Of a stretch of 9,156 nucleotides of DNA, positions 2,023 to 9,156 are shown piece after piece; position 1 is the first letter of the stretch; each line of letters opens with the position of its first letter. A model generated the notes under the pieces. That model worked only from the letters and a program-made list of their open reading frames with translations, did not search any database and had not been told where the DNA came from. Source of the stretch: Candidatus Pacearchaeota archaeon (lineage in GTDB: Archaea; Nanoarchaeota; Nanoarchaeia; Pacearchaeales; GW2011-AR1); contig NZER01000069.1 in NCBI GenBank assembly GCA_002690445.1, positions 1-9,156 on the forward strand, given 5' to 3'. The translations under genes and the position numbers were made by a program.

Positions 2023-2712
2023 ATGACCACACAAGATAACCCAACTAATTATTTAGTGATATTGATGGATTACGGAGATATGAAAATTAACGTAATTAAA
2101 GAAGTAAGAGATGAAGTGTCACTGAGCTTAAGTGCGTCAAAAGACTTGGTTGAGAGTGCGCCATCTATTGTGAAGGCCAATTTAAGCGAGATAGAGGCTA
2201 AAGCTTTAAAAGCAAGACTTGCCAAGCATGGGGCTACCGTACGCATTGGACGTAAGTTTGACGACATGCCTGTCGGTGTTGATTCTATTTTCTTTGCTGA
2301 CGACGAATCCACAACAGATCCTGACTACAACATTATTATCGATGCGCAGTTGGATCGTATTAAATCTCTATGGGAAGATCGCAATAGCTGGAATGAGGGA
2401 CAGGGTGAGTGGACGTGGAAAAAACGGGAACGTTTTGAGATGTTGATCTTGTTAACCACTCTCAGAGACTCTACTGCTACGCTCAATGGGCTACTCAAGA
2501 CATACGTTTCTGATATTGACAACCCGTCTTCTGCATGGAAGCAGCTACTGGATATCTATACGAATCCTAAAATTACAGACCCGTTCAACGCACTGAAAGA
2601 AGCAGGGGGCGTTAGTCCTACGCATCTTGCGGAAACCAGAAACAGAATCGCACGCATATTAAATATAGAATCACCTTTTACAAAAGAAGAAGGGGAGTCC
2701 GCGTCAAAGTAA
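2023..2712 (+). CDS. Protein with an N-terminal ribosomal bL12 C-terminal-domain-like fold
   Basis: A protein of 229 residues. Residues 10-75 resemble the C-terminal domain of ribosomal protein bL7/L12: YLVILMDYGDMKINVIKEVR, then SLSLSASKDLVESAP, then an acidic helix (LSEIEAKALKARLAKHGA) and the closing strand TVRI. These correspond to the bL12 segments F-x-V-x-L...K-x-x-V-I-K-x-V-R, G-L-x-L-x-E-A-K-x-L-V-E-x-x-P and A-x-x-L-K-x-x-L-E-x-x-G-A-x-V. In bL12 this domain recruits EF-Tu, EF-G and IF2 to the ribosome. The bL12 dimerisation domain and hinge are absent. Instead there is a 150-residue tail of helical character (KRERFEMLILLTTLRDS...) that I do not recognise. GGTAAG precedes the ATG. 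The gene is the last before the repeat array, 20 bp from its first element. Virus-encoded bL12 is known; this fused arrangement is unusual. Confidence 0.75.
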   Translation: MTTQDNPTNYLVILMDYGDMKINVIKEVRDEVSLSLSASKDLVESAPSIVKANLSEIEAKALKARLAKHGATVRIGRKFDDMPVGVDSIFFADDESTTDPDYNIIIDAQLDRIKSLWEDRNSWNEGQGEWTWKKRERFEMLILLTTLRDSTATLNGLLKTYVSDIDNPSSAWKQLLDIYTNPKITDPFNALKEAGGVSPTHLAETRNRIARILNIESPFTKEEGESASK

Positions 2713-2732
2713 GTGTCTTCCCTGAAATTTTG

Positions 2733-3766
2733 TAACCATCCAGATGGAGAGCACCAGTCTTTTTGAGTGAGTCAAAAAGGACAAGAGTTCCAATAAAAGA
2801 AGAGCGAGACAAAGGTCCCAAAAGCAACAGTGAGGTTTATCGAACCAGTTCCAATGAAAGTAACAGGTGATGAGAGTGAGACACTGGTTGGAAGAGCACC
2901 AAAAAGGCCAATCGAACCAAAATATGCGAAAGCAACACGTATCGAGAGTAAGTCATAGTTAATACAGCGCCACAAAGATATAACGAACCAGTTCCAGTGA
3001 AAGTACCAGAGGGTGAAAGTGAACCCGGTTTTTATAGAGTACCAATAGAGACAAGTGAGTCATCAGTGAAGAGAGATCTACATCACCAAACGAACCCTAA
3101 AGGGCTGAAAGCAACATCTGTAAAGAGTGAACCACCAATCCGGAAAGTAACAGGCGACTAAAGTGAATCACCACACACGACAGCACCATTTCAAAGAAAT
3201 GAATCCTCGCACACGACAGTACCATCGAGAAGAAATGAAACCGATGTAAATGAAAGCAACACCGATGACAAGTGAACCCCAGTCGCAGAAAGCAACATGT
3301 TAAGGAAGTGAGTCCTTATTACTGACAGCACCATTTACCACGAACGAACCATATGAATAGAAAGTAACATGTTAGTGAAGTGAGCCACGAGTCCGAAAAG
3401 CAACAAGAAATGCCAGTGAACCATATTTGACGAAAGCACCATTCATTAAGAGTAGTCACGATTACCGACAGCAACACCTCAACTAAACGAACCATTGGCA
3501 TAGAAAGTAACAGCACGACCAAGTGAGCCACTTCTATCGATAGCACCAATATCAGAAAGCGAACCCAAGCTGATGTAAATAAAGCAACATCGGTAGCTAG
3601 TGAACCACGCATTCCGGAAAGCAACACATCATAGAAGTGAGTCACGCCGATCGATAGCACCATGAGCATGCAGCGAACCCATAGGCCCAAGAGCACCAAA
3701 GTGAGTAAGTGAACCATTTGATCATGAAAGCACCACCAACTGGTAGTGAGCAAATAAACAGCACCT
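2733..3766. repeat. Array block 1 (about 58 elements)
   Basis: Core starts run 2733 (B), 2751 (A), 2769 (B), 2787 (A) and so on to 3730 (A), 3748 (B) and 3761 (A), alternating throughout. Irregular steps are 19 bp (to 2824, 3111, 3256, 3621, 3730), 17 bp (to 2967, 3092, 3453), one of 23 bp (3561 to 3584) and one of 13 bp (3748 to 3761). The first elements (TAACC, GTTCC, GAGAC) and the one at 3075 are degenerate. The block ends in a hairpin (3762-3781). Confidence 0.85.
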
Positions 3767-3781
3767 GTAACTGAGCAGGTG
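3762..3781. repeat. Hairpin at the end of array block 1
   Basis: CACCTG (3762-3767) and CAGGTG (3776-3781) form a perfect 6-bp stem around an 8-base loop, with one more possible G-U pair. The 5' arm is made from an A-type core, so the hairpin uses array sequence. No T-run follows on either strand, so it is not a typical intrinsic terminator. Confidence 0.6.
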
Positions 3782-3786
3782 TAACT

Positions 3787-3950
3787 ACTAATAGGGGGGT
3801 ATGAGCCAAAGGGGGGGTACTCCCACTGTGTTAATCGGAAAAGAGAATCTGTTAGAGAGAATGAGTCGAAAGACACTAGGAAGTATGGGTACGTGCGGGT
3901 TGAGGCCCACGGCCCATTTCAGAAAATGGCTAAAGCCACCCAGCTTGAAA
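3787..3950. other. Degenerate island within the array
   Basis: The 18-bp rhythm is lost here. Only scattered cores remain (GAGCCA at 3803, GAATC at 3845, GAGTC at 3863). G-runs (3794-3799, 3811-3817) and a GGGGGTAC octamer (3813-3820) stand out; the octamer is also one arm of the hairpin at 4594-4613. A plus-strand frame from ATG 3801 stays open to 4043 but runs into array elements and has only a G-run directly upstream. I see no good evidence that it is a gene. It may be a decayed array segment or the remnant of an inserted gene. Confidence 0.45.
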
Positions 3951-4046
3951 GTTACATACTCTATGAGCGAGCCACGTCTCAAGAAAGCACCACCTATAGT
4001 AAGCGAACCATTCCATTCGATAGCAACACTAGGCCATGAGTGAACC
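3951..4046. repeat. Array block 2 (6 elements)
   Basis: Core starts are 3951 (GTTAC, A), 3969 (GAGCC, B), 3987 (GCACC, A), 4005 (GAACC, B), 4023 (GCAAC, A) and 4042 (GAACC, B), at 18-bp steps except the last (19). It is followed by 63 bp of AT-rich non-array sequence, then one isolated A core (4110-4114) immediately before the start codon at 4115. Confidence 0.8.
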
Positions 4047-4114
4047 GCAAGGTTGTACACTTGGTAAAATAGGGAAATGATTTATCTAGAACAAAATATG
4101 CCAGTAGGAGCAAC

Positions 4115-4393
4115 ATGGTAGACCGGAGGAAGTGCGAGATCGTTAGCGCTGACACCAACGTGCGATGTCATCGCGAGGTACGCTACATCATCTCTATACA
4201 CGATGATAGCGCTATACCTAACCTTGCCCCTGTGCATGCGCCTAAAAACAATCTATACAACAGGTGGTGGAGAGTCTGCGGCACACACGACAGGTTGATA
4301 GGCAGGTATAACCTCATAGCGCAGGGATGGACCAAATCAGAATCTATCATGTGTGAAAGGGCCCCCGCCATGCGTGGTACATCACATGCATAG
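4115..4393 (+). CDS. Small zinc-motif protein encoded inside the array
   Basis: A protein of 92 residues with a likely metal site: C7, C18, then C55-x2-H58 in the string WWRVCGTHDRLIGRYNLIAQ. This C-x10-C...VCGxH layout resembles a treble-clef or zinc-ribbon. From memory, similar VCGTHD-x-L-x-G strings occur in small uncharacterised actinophage proteins. The start has a good Shine-Dalgarno, AGGAG (4106-4110, spacer 4), which overlaps an A-type array element (GCAAC, 4110-4114). Array elements resume directly after the TAG stop. The coding region itself shows no 18-bp periodicity, so it is a genuine insertion or separator and not an array artefact. The function is unknown. A role with the array (processing or regulation) is only suggested by location. 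Confidence 0.75.
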   Translation: MVDRRKCEIVSADTNVRCHREVRYIISIHDDSAIPNLAPVHAPKNNLYNRWWRVCGTHDRLIGRYNLIAQGWTKSESIMCERAPAMRGTSHA

Positions 4394-4404
4394 GTGCGCA
4401 CCTA
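4391..4404. repeat. 14-bp perfect palindrome at the gene/array junction
   Basis: TAGGTGCGCACCTA is self-complementary. It begins with the TAG stop of the gene at 4115-4393 and contains an A-type core (GCACC, 4398-4402). The next element (GAGCC, 4407) is only 9 bp away, and the regular 18-bp spacing starts from there. It could be a protein-binding site or a mark of how the gene entered the array. Confidence 0.6.
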
Positions 4405-4823
4405 TCGAGCCACAAGTCTCAACAGCAACATCTAACCGAAGCGATCCATCAACATCAATAGCAACATCTATCACGAGTGAGTCAACAATAGCGAAAGTAC
4501 CAGCTAGGCTGAACGAACCAATCATTCTGAGAGTACCACGGAAGAATAGTGAGTCATCATGAACGAGAGCACCAGCCGTTGCAAGCGAGTCGTGTACCCC
4601 CGTAAGGGGGTACAAGAAGGAACCATTAGTTGTGAGGGAACCAAGCTCCACAAGTAAGTCACTTTTAGCGAGAGCACCAAGAGTATCGAACGATCCATGA
4701 GACCAAGGGGACCAGATGATACGAGTGAGTCGAGAGGCTAGTGAGTACCAGTAAGGTGAAACGAGCCAAACAGATAACAAGAGCAACAATGCATAGAGTG
4801 AGTCCTATATGGACAGAGCACCA
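4398..4823. repeat. Array block 3 (about 24 elements)
   Basis: After the palindrome, cores run from 4407 (B) and 4425 (A) at 18-bp steps to 4587 (B). A GC-rich hairpin (4594-4613) replaces one A element. The rhythm resumes at 4620 (B) and continues to 4818 (A). Deviations are 17 bp (to 4709 and 4800) and 20 bp (to 4783). The A element at 4638 is GAACC instead of GYAMC. Confidence 0.85.
4594..4613. repeat. GC-rich hairpin with GNRA tetraloop in the array
   Basis: GTACCCCC (4594-4601), GTAA loop (4602-4605) and GGGGGTAC (4606-4613) make a perfect 8-bp stem with a GUAA tetraloop if transcribed. It occupies the place of one A element between B elements at 4587 and 4620. No T-run follows, so it is probably not a terminator; an RNA-processing or pause signal is possible. 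Confidence 0.75.
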
Positions 4824-4829
4824 TTCGAA

Positions 4830-5105
4830 ATGACTTCCCTCATTTGCTTATATGGGGGACATAGCGATTGCGCTTTAATGAAATGTCAATGCAAGTGTCA
4901 CAAGGAGATGGAACGAACCCTAAAGGATGAAAGTACCCGCTATCAAGAGTGGTCATTTTTCCTGAGAGCACCAGATAAAGCGAACGAGTCACGAAGCCCG
5001 AAAGGACCAGTTGATACGAACGAACCATTCCGTTTGAAAGCACCACCACAAGCAAGTGAATCATCCAAAACGAACGCACCAATGAATACGAATGAACCAG
5101 CATGA
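4830..5105 (+). CDS. Cys-rich mini-protein whose frame continues into the array
   Basis: The array is interrupted at 4824-4914 by about 90 bp without periodicity. That stretch encodes, from ATG 4830, a Cys/His cluster: C6, H11, C14, C19, C21, C23, H24 (CLYGGHSDCALMKCQCKCHK). This C..H..C....C-x-C-x-C-H pattern resembles very small zinc-binding proteins I recall from actinophages. The frame then stays open for about 62 codons through array block 4, where elements read as AP (A) and NEP or NES (B), until TGA at 5103-5105. Whether the array-derived tail is really translated is uncertain. No convincing Shine-Dalgarno is visible. An in-frame ATG at 4809 would begin within an array spacer. The N-terminal module looks real; the tail may be incidental. 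Confidence 0.45.
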   Translation: MTSLICLYGGHSDCALMKCQCKCHKEMERTLKDESTRYQEWSFFLRAPDKANESRSPKGPVDTNEPFRLKAPPQASESSKTNAPMNTNEPA

Positions 5106-5643
5106 TAGACAGCAACAGATATATAGAGTGAATCAAGGCCACCAAGAGCACCAGATAAAGCGAATGAGTCAACGACAACGAGAGCAACTATGGACACGTA
5201 ACGAGCCAAAAGTGGAGAAAGCACCCCGCTACGAGAGCGAGTCATGTTTGACGAAAGCACCAATGGCCTGAAACGAACCACCTCAAACAAAAGCAACAGA
5301 GGAATCAAGTGAACCATTATACGGAAGAGCACCTTTGAAGAAGAGTGAGTCAACGAAAGCAAACGCACCAGAGAAACAAAACGAACCCGATGATGCAAAA
5401 GCAACAGTTCGACGAGAGTGAGTCTCCGACCTAGAAAGAACCGATGGATACGAACGAACCCTGTCTTTTGAAAGCAACAAACGGATAAAGTGAACCATTT
5501 ATCATTAGAACACCACGAATTGGAAGTGAGTCGATTGGACGGAGAGCACCAGTACGCTAGAACGAGTTACGTCGAGGCGAGAGAACCATCGAGAAAAAAT
5601 GAACCAAGTGGTTACGAGAGCACCAAATGAACCAGAGTGAACG
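4915..5643. repeat. Array block 4 (about 41 elements)
   Basis: Cores run from 4915 (GAACC, B) and 4933 (GTACC, A) to 5620 (GCACC, A) and 5639 (GAACG, B), the last ending directly before the ATG at 5644. Steps are 18 bp except 17 bp (to 4950) and 19 bp (to 5203, 5420, 5583, 5620, 5639). Elements near the right end (ACACC 5510, GAGTT 5564, GAACC in A position at 5583, GAACG 5639) are degenerate, as at the left end of the array. Confidence 0.85.
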
Positions 5644-6003
5644 ATGGCAGTAAGACTAACAAAAAGGAACCTGACGTCCCACGACAATCCTAATCACGAA
5701 CGAGAAGTGCCGTCTTTGCCGGAAGAATCCTTTGGACACTGTATACGGCGCGACAGTAAATCCGGACAAGGCAAGCTCTCCTGTACAACAAAGAAGAAGA
5801 CTACGTTAGCAGACGGATTATGTATGAGTTGCTGGGACAAAATGGTCGGACAGGCATCACCAGCAGAGGATGAAAAGTACGGTAGAACATCTAATCTGAA
5901 GGCAGAGTCAGAGACTCCGGTGGGACGTCCAAAAGGTTGGAAGTCAGTAAAAAAGTCTAAGAGTGGTCCGAAGCTGACTAACGGACACGTTACATATAGG
6001 TGA
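5644..6003 (+). CDS. Small basic protein with a four-Cys motif and a GRP (AT-hook-like) tail
   Basis: A protein of 119 residues. C33, C47 and C60-x2-C63 (GHC...LSC...GLCMSCWDK) suggest a zinc ribbon. The C-terminal third is basic and Gly/Pro/Lys-rich, with GRPKGWKSVKKSKSGPK (94-110) containing a GRP core like an AT-hook, so nucleic-acid binding is likely. The only usable start is the ATG at 5644, which follows the last array element (AGTGAACG) with no spacer and has no Shine-Dalgarno. Translation may therefore depend on the array transcript or on an unrecognised signal. The position beside the array makes it a candidate partner or regulator, but nothing in it resembles the Nop domain of Tas proteins. 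Function unknown. Confidence 0.65.
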   Translation: MAVRLTKRNLTSHDNPNHEREVPSLPEESFGHCIRRDSKSGQGKLSCTTKKKTTLADGLCMSCWDKMVGQASPAEDEKYGRTSNLKAESETPVGRPKGWKSVKKSKSGPKLTNGHVTYR

Positions 6004-6078
6004 TTGCACGGACAGAATGGTGAAAGTATACCCACTTGATGAATGTGCGTCCGTCCATGCAACCAAAAAGAGTTTAAC

Positions 6079-6501
6079 ATGAAGTATTTACTAAGAATCA
6101 GTATAGTCGCGTGCGTGTTGGGAGCGGTATCACTAGGCATCGGTGCTCCGACTGAAGCAGACACAGGAATCCATCCGAACGTCACACACCAAGTCTGGAT
6201 GCAGGGCTACGGGTTATTCGATGTCGTGTTTGCAGGATCATTCTGTATTCCGACACGATCAAAGACAGAATTAACGGCAGGAGATCTGGTATCTGTGGTG
6301 GACACTAGAAAATGTCCTGATATCCCATTTGAAATGAAAAAGGTTCTGTATAAGAATATGTCGGGCTGGACATGGGACTTCGTGTTACGAGAGCTATCTG
6401 AAGACGAAATACCAGAGGAGCCAGTTCCTATCTATAAAGAAGAGACTGAGGAAGAAAATATGGATGTAGCAACGACTACACCAGAGACAGCATTAGTATG
6501 A
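6079..6501 (+). CDS. Exported protein with signal peptide, unknown function
   Basis: A protein of 140 residues from the ATG at 6079, which has AAAGAG (6067-6072, spacer 6). An in-frame ATG at 6043 would put 12 polar residues before the signal peptide and is less likely. Residues 1-24 form a classical signal sequence: positive n-region (MKYLLR), hydrophobic core (ISIVACVLGAVSLGIG) and small residues at GIGA/PTEA, with likely cleavage near residues 23-27. The core Cys has no lipobox around it. The mature part has two Cys (in FCIPT and TRKCPDI) that could form a disulfide outside the cytoplasm, and a very acidic tail. The stop overlaps the next start (ATGA, 6498-6501), so the two genes are translationally coupled. 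A phage cell-surface or exclusion factor is possible, but this is only inference. Confidence 0.7.
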   Translation: MKYLLRISIVACVLGAVSLGIGAPTEADTGIHPNVTHQVWMQGYGLFDVVFAGSFCIPTRSKTELTAGDLVSVVDTRKCPDIPFEMKKVLYKNMSGWTWDFVLRELSEDEIPEEPVPIYKEETEEENMDVATTTPETALV

Positions 6502-6903: not shown

Positions 6904-7020
6904 GTTAATCGTGCTCTGTATATCAGCCTCACTGGATACGGCACACAACTCCTTTAAGGTGACGTCACCAGCAGCCCGGAGGCGTCACCGCAGGACTCCC
7001 CTACCCCCACGGTATATATA
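6904..7020 (+). other. Non-coding leader with palindrome and direct repeats
   Basis: This stretch between two promoters has no reading frame of note. GGTGACGTCACC (6958-6969) is a perfect 12-bp palindrome. GGTGACG (6958-6964) can also pair with CGTCACC (6983-6989), and CGTCACC occurs at both 6963 and 6983 as a 20-bp-spaced direct repeat. It may be an operator or part of a small RNA started at about 6910. No T-run terminator is present. Confidence 0.45.
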
Positions 7021-7025
7021 GCTTT

Positions 7026-7082
7026 CCCTTACGCATTGCTGGGTTATTTGCTATTGACGAACTGATTATTTCTTGCTACACT
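7026..7082 (+). promoter_or_regulatory. Promoter P1 with upstream palindrome-family element
   Basis: TTGACG (7054-7059), 17-bp spacer, then TACACT (7077-7082) preceded by TGC. Upstream, CCCTTACGCATTGCTGGG (7026-7043) belongs to a family shared with P2, P3 and P4, including the flanking TATATAGCTTTCCCTTA. Unlike the others, here the element is 10 bp away from the -35 instead of touching it. P1 should transcribe the gene at 7134. Confidence 0.65.
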
Positions 7083-7133
7083 GGTATCACCAAATAAGAG
7101 GTTAGTAACCAGCAACCGATCCCGGAGGACAGA

Positions 7134-8469: not shown

Positions 8470-8499
8470 CCCGCAGCGCCGCGACCCGTATATAGCTTT

Positions 8500-8544
8500 C
8501 CCTTACCACTTATGGGTTGACGGACCGCCTGCATGTGGTATAAT
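8500..8544 (+). promoter_or_regulatory. Promoter P2 with palindromic element touching the -35
   Basis: CCCTTACCACTTATGGG (8500-8516) runs straight into TTGACG (8517-8522). After a 16-bp spacer comes a perfect TATAAT (8539-8544) with TG upstream (extended -10). It transcribes the hairpin RNA at about 8551-8645. An operator overlapping the -35 suggests repression, or activation, by a dimeric phage regulator. Confidence 0.75.
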
Positions 8545-8550
8545 TACGGT

Positions 8551-8645: not shown

Positions 8646-8681
8646 GTCAAAAAAAGTTGCCCGGAGGGGCAGCACAGCTTT

Positions 8682-8726
8682 CCCTTAGCACTTAGGGGTT
8701 GACGAACCATCTAGATGTGGTAGTAT
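8682..8726 (+). promoter_or_regulatory. Promoter P3 with palindromic element beside the -35
   Basis: CCCTTAGCACTTAGGG (8682-8697), an imperfect 16-bp palindrome, is followed by TTGACG (8699-8704), a 16-bp spacer and TAGTAT (8721-8726) with TG upstream. The spacer and -10 region share ATGTGGTA...TTACG with P2, so the two are probably duplicates. It drives the 40-codon gene at 8760. Confidence 0.7.
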
Positions 8727-8759
8727 TACGTCATACTACATAAGGAGATACGTGCAGAG

Positions 8760-9050: not shown

Positions 9051-9096
9051 ATCCCGTAAATCCAGCAGCACAGCCAGCAGCAGAAGCGGCATCTTT

Positions 9097-9143
9097 TCCT
9101 TAGCGCTTAGGGATTGCCAAACCTCTATCCAATTTGATATACT
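9097..9143 (+). promoter_or_regulatory. Promoter P4 with palindromic element beside the -35
   Basis: TCCTTAGCGCTTAGGG (9097-9112), the most symmetric copy of the family, then TTGCCA (9114-9119), an 18-bp spacer and TATACT (9138-9143) with TGA directly upstream. It reads out of the window, so another cassette of the same kind probably follows. Confidence 0.65.
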
Positions 9144-9156
9144 TGTCTTAGGCAGA

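Follow-up and report, generated by a model that had tools for sequence, protein, structure and literature searches.

A long multi-block TIGR array with covarying edge repeats in DNA of a likely tailed phage

Introduction

Tandem interspaced guide RNA (TIGR) arrays, as presented in PMC12045711, are the closest described systems to the locus analysed here, an array of short alternating repeats at positions 2733–5653 of a 9,156-nucleotide (nt) stretch of DNA (contig NZER01000069.1 of assembly GCA_002690445.1, labelled Candidatus Pacearchaeota archaeon; hereafter the window), whose source is likely a tailed phage. In dual-repeat TIGR-TasA systems, two short repeats (termed edge and loop) alternate with spacers of about 8 nt in a 36-nt unit, and the window shares this layout, together with the common end motifs of edge and loop repeats, the truncated first edge repeat and, in the genomes of its relatives, a TasA protein. 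According to the same source, processed guides (tigRNAs) run from the middle of one edge repeat to the middle of the next, the edge pair shows covariation from one TasR array to another, and the repeats of any one locus are conserved. The box motif letters of TasR arrays are UG/CCA, with divergence allowed, and the letters of the window differ from them. How guides are excised and how spacers are gained are both named there as open questions.

The window nevertheless departs from the described dual-repeat systems in several respects: its array has about 61 units where 5–15 are usual, it is divided into four blocks, TasA does not adjoin the array in relatives but lies at a distance of 7.6–13 kb, and the edge repeat changes between units while the ends of each unit match. 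Stem-loop TIGR arrays (PMC12045711) resemble the window in having variable unit-end sequences able to pair with each other, but in the window this is limited to a covarying 2-bp clamp, the edge repeat around it is still recognisable, the loop repeat is conserved, and an extended palindrome was not seen. The array looks intermediate between the two described types. CRISPR arrays also alternate repeats with mostly unique spacers; however, they use a single repeat of 25–36 nt (as given in PMC12045711), in contrast to the two 10-nt repeats and 8-nt spacers found here. We consider it highly probable that this DNA carries a long TIGR array in several blocks, whose transcript would yield about 61 dual-spacer guides for a TasA; the gene of that protein likely lies about 11 kb upstream in the phage genome, on the strand of the array.

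Architecture of the array

Using a position weight matrix built from the window itself together with dynamic programming, we chained 123 elements on the + strand between positions 2747 and 5653, with a chain score of 1189; five shuffles reached 10.6–16.5, the reverse strand 8.3 and the flanks 10.7. The score includes one stray element at 754. A preliminary description of this DNA had placed about 130 elements at 2733–5643, and the array is indeed present. The start at 2733 is sensible, since positions 2733–2738 (TAACCA) represent the 3′ half of an edge repeat. Also confirmed was the alternation of A (GYAMCA) and B (GARYCA) elements, with 61 loop-type A and 62 edge-type B elements alternating in 117 of 122 neighbour pairs. 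With the conserved purine counted, each repeat is 10 nt long, with the consensus RANAGYAMCA for A and RANNGARYCA for B, so that both carry the same end motifs (RA...CA; box D start, box C end), and the positions following each repeat hold almost no information.

The 18-bp periodicity originally described holds exactly in 99 of 122 steps (19 bp in 11 and 17 bp in 4), but the accompanying 8–9 variable bases had to be redefined, as repeats measure 10 nt and most spacers have 8 nt (45/54 for spacer A and 47/54 for spacer B). Unit length is 36 nt in 40 of the 54 complete units and 35–38 nt in the other 14. The array accordingly fits the dual-repeat type, which is characterised by two alternating repeats of 8–12 nt, spacers of 8–12 nt and a unit of ~36 nt. 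Spacers are nearly all distinct, with one identical pair (null mean 0.11, maximum 1) and nine pairs that differ by a single letter (null mean 3.1, maximum 8), a slight excess of near-copies that suggests some internal duplication.

Far from being unbroken, as had been thought, the array is cut into four blocks, all on the + strand, by three interruptions at about 3762–3946, 4056–4402 and 4832–4910. Block 1 (2733–3761) opens with the 5′-truncated edge repeat at 2733–2738, block 2 (3947–4055) comprises six elements, and block 3 (4403–4831) is followed by block 4 (4911–5653), in which the last edge repeat (5635–5644) has a degenerate 3′ half and overlaps the start codon of the following open reading frame (ORF). 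Edge repeats are thus incomplete at both array ends, as read directly from the sequence.

Between blocks 2 and 3 lies an ORF of 92 amino acids (4115–4393, + strand) with no assigned function, and an A-type-like element, GGAGCAACATGG, at 4109–4117 overlaps its start region. Block 3 includes a perfect-looking hairpin, TGTACCCCCGTAAGGGGGTACA, at 4593–4614 between two edge repeats.

Covariation of successive edge repeats

In 45 of 54 comparisons, positions 7–8 of a B repeat are Watson-Crick complements of positions 3–4 of the B repeat that follows 36 nt later, and the count rises to 51 of 54 when G-U pairs are included; 2000 shuffles gave means of 16.7 and 33.7, with maxima of 28 and 42. Control comparisons stayed close to or below their shuffled values, both in the backward direction (18/54, shuffles 16.3) and within one repeat (14/62, shuffles 19.2), as well as with the second-next repeat (7/47, shuffles 15.0), and A repeats gave 0/53. 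Pairs at this clamp include AC/GT, GT/AC, AT/AT, GC/GC and GA/TC among others, a variety that indicates compensatory changes.

Because the clamp was first spotted by inspecting the window, other loci served as the out-of-sample test, with one array taken from each group of loci with common spacers. Across these 90 other arrays, 1408 of 1654 edge pairs were complementary, compared to 1119 in shuffles (z 27.3). The backward (z 6.0) and within-repeat (z 4.5) controls presumably reflect the kinship of neighbouring repeats, and A repeats showed no signal (z −0.1). Taken array by array, z exceeded 3 in 29/75 for B and in 0/68 for A; in 28 of the 75 arrays the clamp hardly varies and is hence uninformative. 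An apparent avoidance of equal clamps between neighbouring units in the window (7/47 the same versus 13.7) was not general, since it vanished elsewhere (1160 versus 1135), and was set aside.

Because end covariation is seen in B and not in A, B is the edge repeat and A the loop repeat. The edge covariation predicts unit boundaries from DNA alone, so that the clamp indicates, from sequence only, both where the guides would end and which pairing may be required for their processing. The covariation itself is a property of the DNA, while the pairing of the clamp would occur in RNA. Variation of the edge repeat from unit to unit with matched ends is new here: unit-to-unit covariation within one array was not found in the accessible portions of PMC12045711, and our literature search returned no other primary TIGR paper, the TasH structures being known from PDB titles of March 2026.

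Association of arrays with TasA

A scan of IMG/VR with a four-element pattern returned at least 120 stretches, some of them in repeat proteins. Under stricter rules (at least eight elements and 60% alternation, with no separate coding test), arrays were present at 55 of the 120 loci listed, spread over 50 contigs, and a single protein family of about 260–370 amino acids (some copies being cut by contig ends) was encoded on 45 of these 50 contigs; the five contigs lacking it are records of 4–30 kb. For the reverse test, we fetched viral loci by the protein family, taking the best 80 of at least 538 confirmed, and the window-trained model detected arrays at 68 of these 80 loci on the same strand as the protein, compared to 0/80 on the opposite strand and 0/80 after shuffling. 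The family profile used for this test was derived from pattern-found loci, and the contigs of 8 of the 80 loci were already among the matches of the pattern scan. No window-type array was seen in the fetched flanks of the other 12 loci (e.g. L190, L191, L215), which may have stem-loop, diverged or distant arrays. Among 36 bacterial and archaeal loci of the family, many of them distant relatives, arrays occurred at eight. Counted by a uniform method, the window array has 122 elements, compared to a maximum of 110 in the 80 viral loci.

Compared with solved structures, the family profile matched TasR (9mty, 5.7e-23) and TasH (21kl, 1.7e-13) best, with IS110-family recombinases next, and predicted folds agree with these matches to TasR and TasH (21kl, 9w04 and others). 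The TasA of the window's relatives has a solo Nop fold akin to that of TasR and TasH and lacks their nuclease part (RuvC or HNH), with an endonuclease VII-like gene standing beside it as a separate gene. In Pfam, only Transposase_20 was matched, by 16 of 18 aligned family members (the match of the nearest relative's TasA falls just under the Pfam cut-off), and all 18 matched phrog_4285. The family protein is TasA as described in PMC12045711. Because the model trained on the window detects arrays at loci fetched by TasA, and because the protein matches TasR and TasH, the window array is a TIGR array, as the preliminary description had proposed.

In PHROGs, phrog_4285 carries the name transposase, and many Tas proteins may hide there in phage annotation.

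A likely split layout and its rival explanations

The preliminary description had advised a search of 20–30 kb on each side for a Nop-domain protein; in the window's virus family, TasA was found in 7 of 35 records, including the nearest relative. This relative, phage contig L261/G029, overlaps the first 188 bp of the window at 88.8% identity, and weaker protein matches add to the link; its TasA (L261:668–1726) has an open frame and lies 8.46 kb before the end of the record, which puts it about 11 kb ahead of the place of the array. In three further relatives (G005, G061 and G043), TasA and an array occur on one contig and strand, 7.6–13 kb apart, while elsewhere arrays adjoin TasA with a median gap of 24 bp. 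Judging from this arrangement in the family, the window likely represents a split-locus TIGR variant with its Tas protein likely encoded in the window's own genome. With TasA that far upstream, the absence of a Tas gene from the window is expected, and for both reasons we file the window as a TIGR member by its array alone and not as an array-Tas pair. Searches that reach no further than 5 kb from a Tas gene, the range used in PMC12045711, would miss the arrays of such split systems.

An endonuclease VII-like gene (L265:1166–2065, L313:17395–18288, L267:6243–6992) is located directly upstream of TasA in all four family records that cover that side (G029, G061, G005 and G043). It is also present in G049, even though that record lacks TasA, and a relative of it occurs in the fetched stretch at 3 of 80 other TasA loci, never adjacent. 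The protein has no match among PDB sequences; a partnership with TasA is a possibility.

Several observations weigh against a split TIGR-TasA system. As the preliminary description had noted, no Tas protein is found within the window (best TasA match in six frames, E value 2.1), so that the array does not adjoin a Tas gene. The bridge to the TasA-bearing relative is the 188-bp overlap, and 28 of the 35 family records, mostly short fragments but including one of 95.6 kb (G049), are without TasA. Sigma-70-like promoters in 2500–6200 number 0 against 5.0 expected, a consensus scan of the + strand found no terminator-like site after the array up to 6200, and the target searches described below returned no enrichment in fetched DNA and nothing credible in own sequence.

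An orphan TIGR array, kept as a relic or decoy after the virus had lost TasA, would account for the missing gene and for G049, in which the usual TasA-flanking genes stand side by side. We nevertheless judge this improbable, because G049 also lacks an array in the 49 kb examined, so that TasA and array seem to have been lost together, because G-U-inclusive clamp pairing, which decay would break, is intact in nearly all units of the window, and because the nearest relative retains an open TasA frame. Still harder to credit is a TIGR array served in trans by the Tas protein of a host or a co-infecting virus, which again fits a window without a Tas gene, but not the closest relatives, in which TasA is encoded by the virus itself and always in the same position. 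A gene for a repeat protein, or periodic DNA of another kind (iterons, variable number tandem repeats), mimicking a guide array can, like CRISPR, be dismissed almost entirely, as the preliminary description had already argued: 18 is a multiple of 3, some IMG/VR pattern matches are repeat proteins with very long ORFs, and the longest open frame inside the array spans 207 codons, but randomised spacers yield 109–242 codons (5–95%), with at least 207 in 11% of trials, the 17- and 19-bp steps break any frame, nearly all spacers differ, and covariation 36 nt apart between repeats is a signature of RNA pairing.

Spacer turnover between related viruses

The preliminary description had named identical spacers in all related genomes as an outcome at odds with a TIGR array; spacers differ among related array-bearing viruses. 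The turnover reported here is that between other TasA viruses and not of the window's own array. Between L203 and L204, which are 94% identical in their longest flanking match, 41 spacers are identical, 6 carry one or two changes, 13 are unrelated and 20 are unmatched, and both array ends are identical. Six further pairs were aligned; five of them show differences at two or more spacers, and in each of these five the interior spacers differ and one or both ends are common to the pair. In a 12,875-column alignment of L182 and L185, there are only five differences, all within one 8-nt spacer, the third of the array, which changes from AAAGTAGA to ATGGACAC while its repeats are unaltered; each version is absent from the stretch fetched for the other contig. 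The two contigs correspond to the IMG/VR records IMGVR_UViG_3300043295_000106 and IMGVR_UViG_3300043776_000184. This exchange is one event, for which an assembly error is possible. L192 and L194, on the other hand, show 4.6% divergence outside the array but none inside it, which speaks against a simple rule of fast spacers. Renewal between these viruses thus leaves the flanks and one or both ends of the array in place and affects the interior, where spacers and units undergo replacement, duplication or loss.

Viruses that are almost the same apart from a single spacer, together with related arrays in which some parts are common and the interiors renewed, form a natural record of spacer turnover, and these data, like those on the clamp, touch on spacer gain and guide excision, the two questions left open in PMC12045711. 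Spacers common to different arrays (185 pairs versus 139, standard deviation 11, maximum 166) partly reflect residual kinship and were not used.

Proposed mechanism and target searches

On the split TIGR-TasA reading that we favour, the array transcript would be cut inside each edge (B) repeat to release about 61 guide RNAs of ~36 nt, each consisting of an edge half, spacer A, the loop (A) repeat, spacer B and a second edge half. The 2-bp clamp would join the guide ends by pairing positions 7–8 of one edge repeat with positions 3–4 of the next, and the guides would load onto the nuclease-less Nop-domain TasA likely encoded upstream. In analogy to what is published for TasR, spacers A and B would pair with opposite strands of the target. 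Since TasA has no nuclease domain, the complex would most likely bind, unwind and bend sites of 16–18 bp in competing genomes, such as those of other phages or plasmids, where it could block expression or replication. Renewed spacers suit moving targets of this kind, that is, competing mobile elements, better than a fixed self-regulation.

The target is the weakest step of this mechanism. Exact 16-mer targets were sought in 2.6 Mb of fetched DNA (5.28 million 16-mer positions, both strands) with 1735 and 1779 distinct spacer pairs, skipping pairs with a spacer of other than 8 nt, and the four strand arrangements in two unit phases gave 0–4 hits each, compared to means of 1.7–2.8 in re-paired controls. 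Among eight counts of near-matches in own sequence, one exceeded expectation (157 versus 129.5; 12 permutations reached at most 143) and others fell below it (108 versus 126.8; 2 versus 10.0), and we treated these deviations as noise.

A bolder and rather doubtful extension is that each guide unit in the split TIGR-TasA systems of a tailed-phage family carries an individual lock, in which the matched end dinucleotides of that unit, and not a fixed edge repeat, would allow the processing machinery to match up the two cuts of one guide in a long array. As part of the same proposal, the precise exchange of a single spacer between its repeats, with the rest of the genome untouched, would point to a dedicated spacer-writing process, and TasA would act in trans from ~11 kb away, perhaps with the endonuclease VII-like gene that precedes it.

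Surrounding genes and signals

All annotated neighbours of the array lie on the + strand. A gene end at 3–416 continues in the TasA-carrying relative L261/G029, and a helix-turn-helix protein at 1060–1548 has relatives in the virus-family records G049 (L315, 28%, 1.3e-10) and G031 (L314, 6e-4). Directly 3′ of the array, the ORF at 5644–6003 has relatives in G049 (L315, 34%, 4.8e-8) and G043 (L312, 4.5e-5). Upstream, the array is adjoined by an ORF (2023–2712) in which a ribosomal L7/L12 C-terminal domain is fused to a part without assigned function; one relative of this protein is 98% identical, and the rest of the 120 matches listed are ribosomal L7/L12 proteins. A 318-amino-acid protein of the window has identical copies in a cluster of three contigs, the longest of 8894 bases, so that the window may make up most of a metagenome contig; searches with this protein or the L7/L12-domain protein returned no viral relatives. 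A 34-base window pattern had no match in IMG/VR, the window had none in a phage collection and its positions 1–2720 had none in a plasmid collection, and neither a tRNA nor an Rfam family was detected in the window.

Four related promoter-like stretches with AGCTTTCCCTTA occur at 7015–7110, 8489–8548, 8671–8730 and 9084–9145, and no such stretch was seen 5′ of the array. Two of the four then carry TTGAC-N-TATAAT-like boxes (55 nt, 84% identity).

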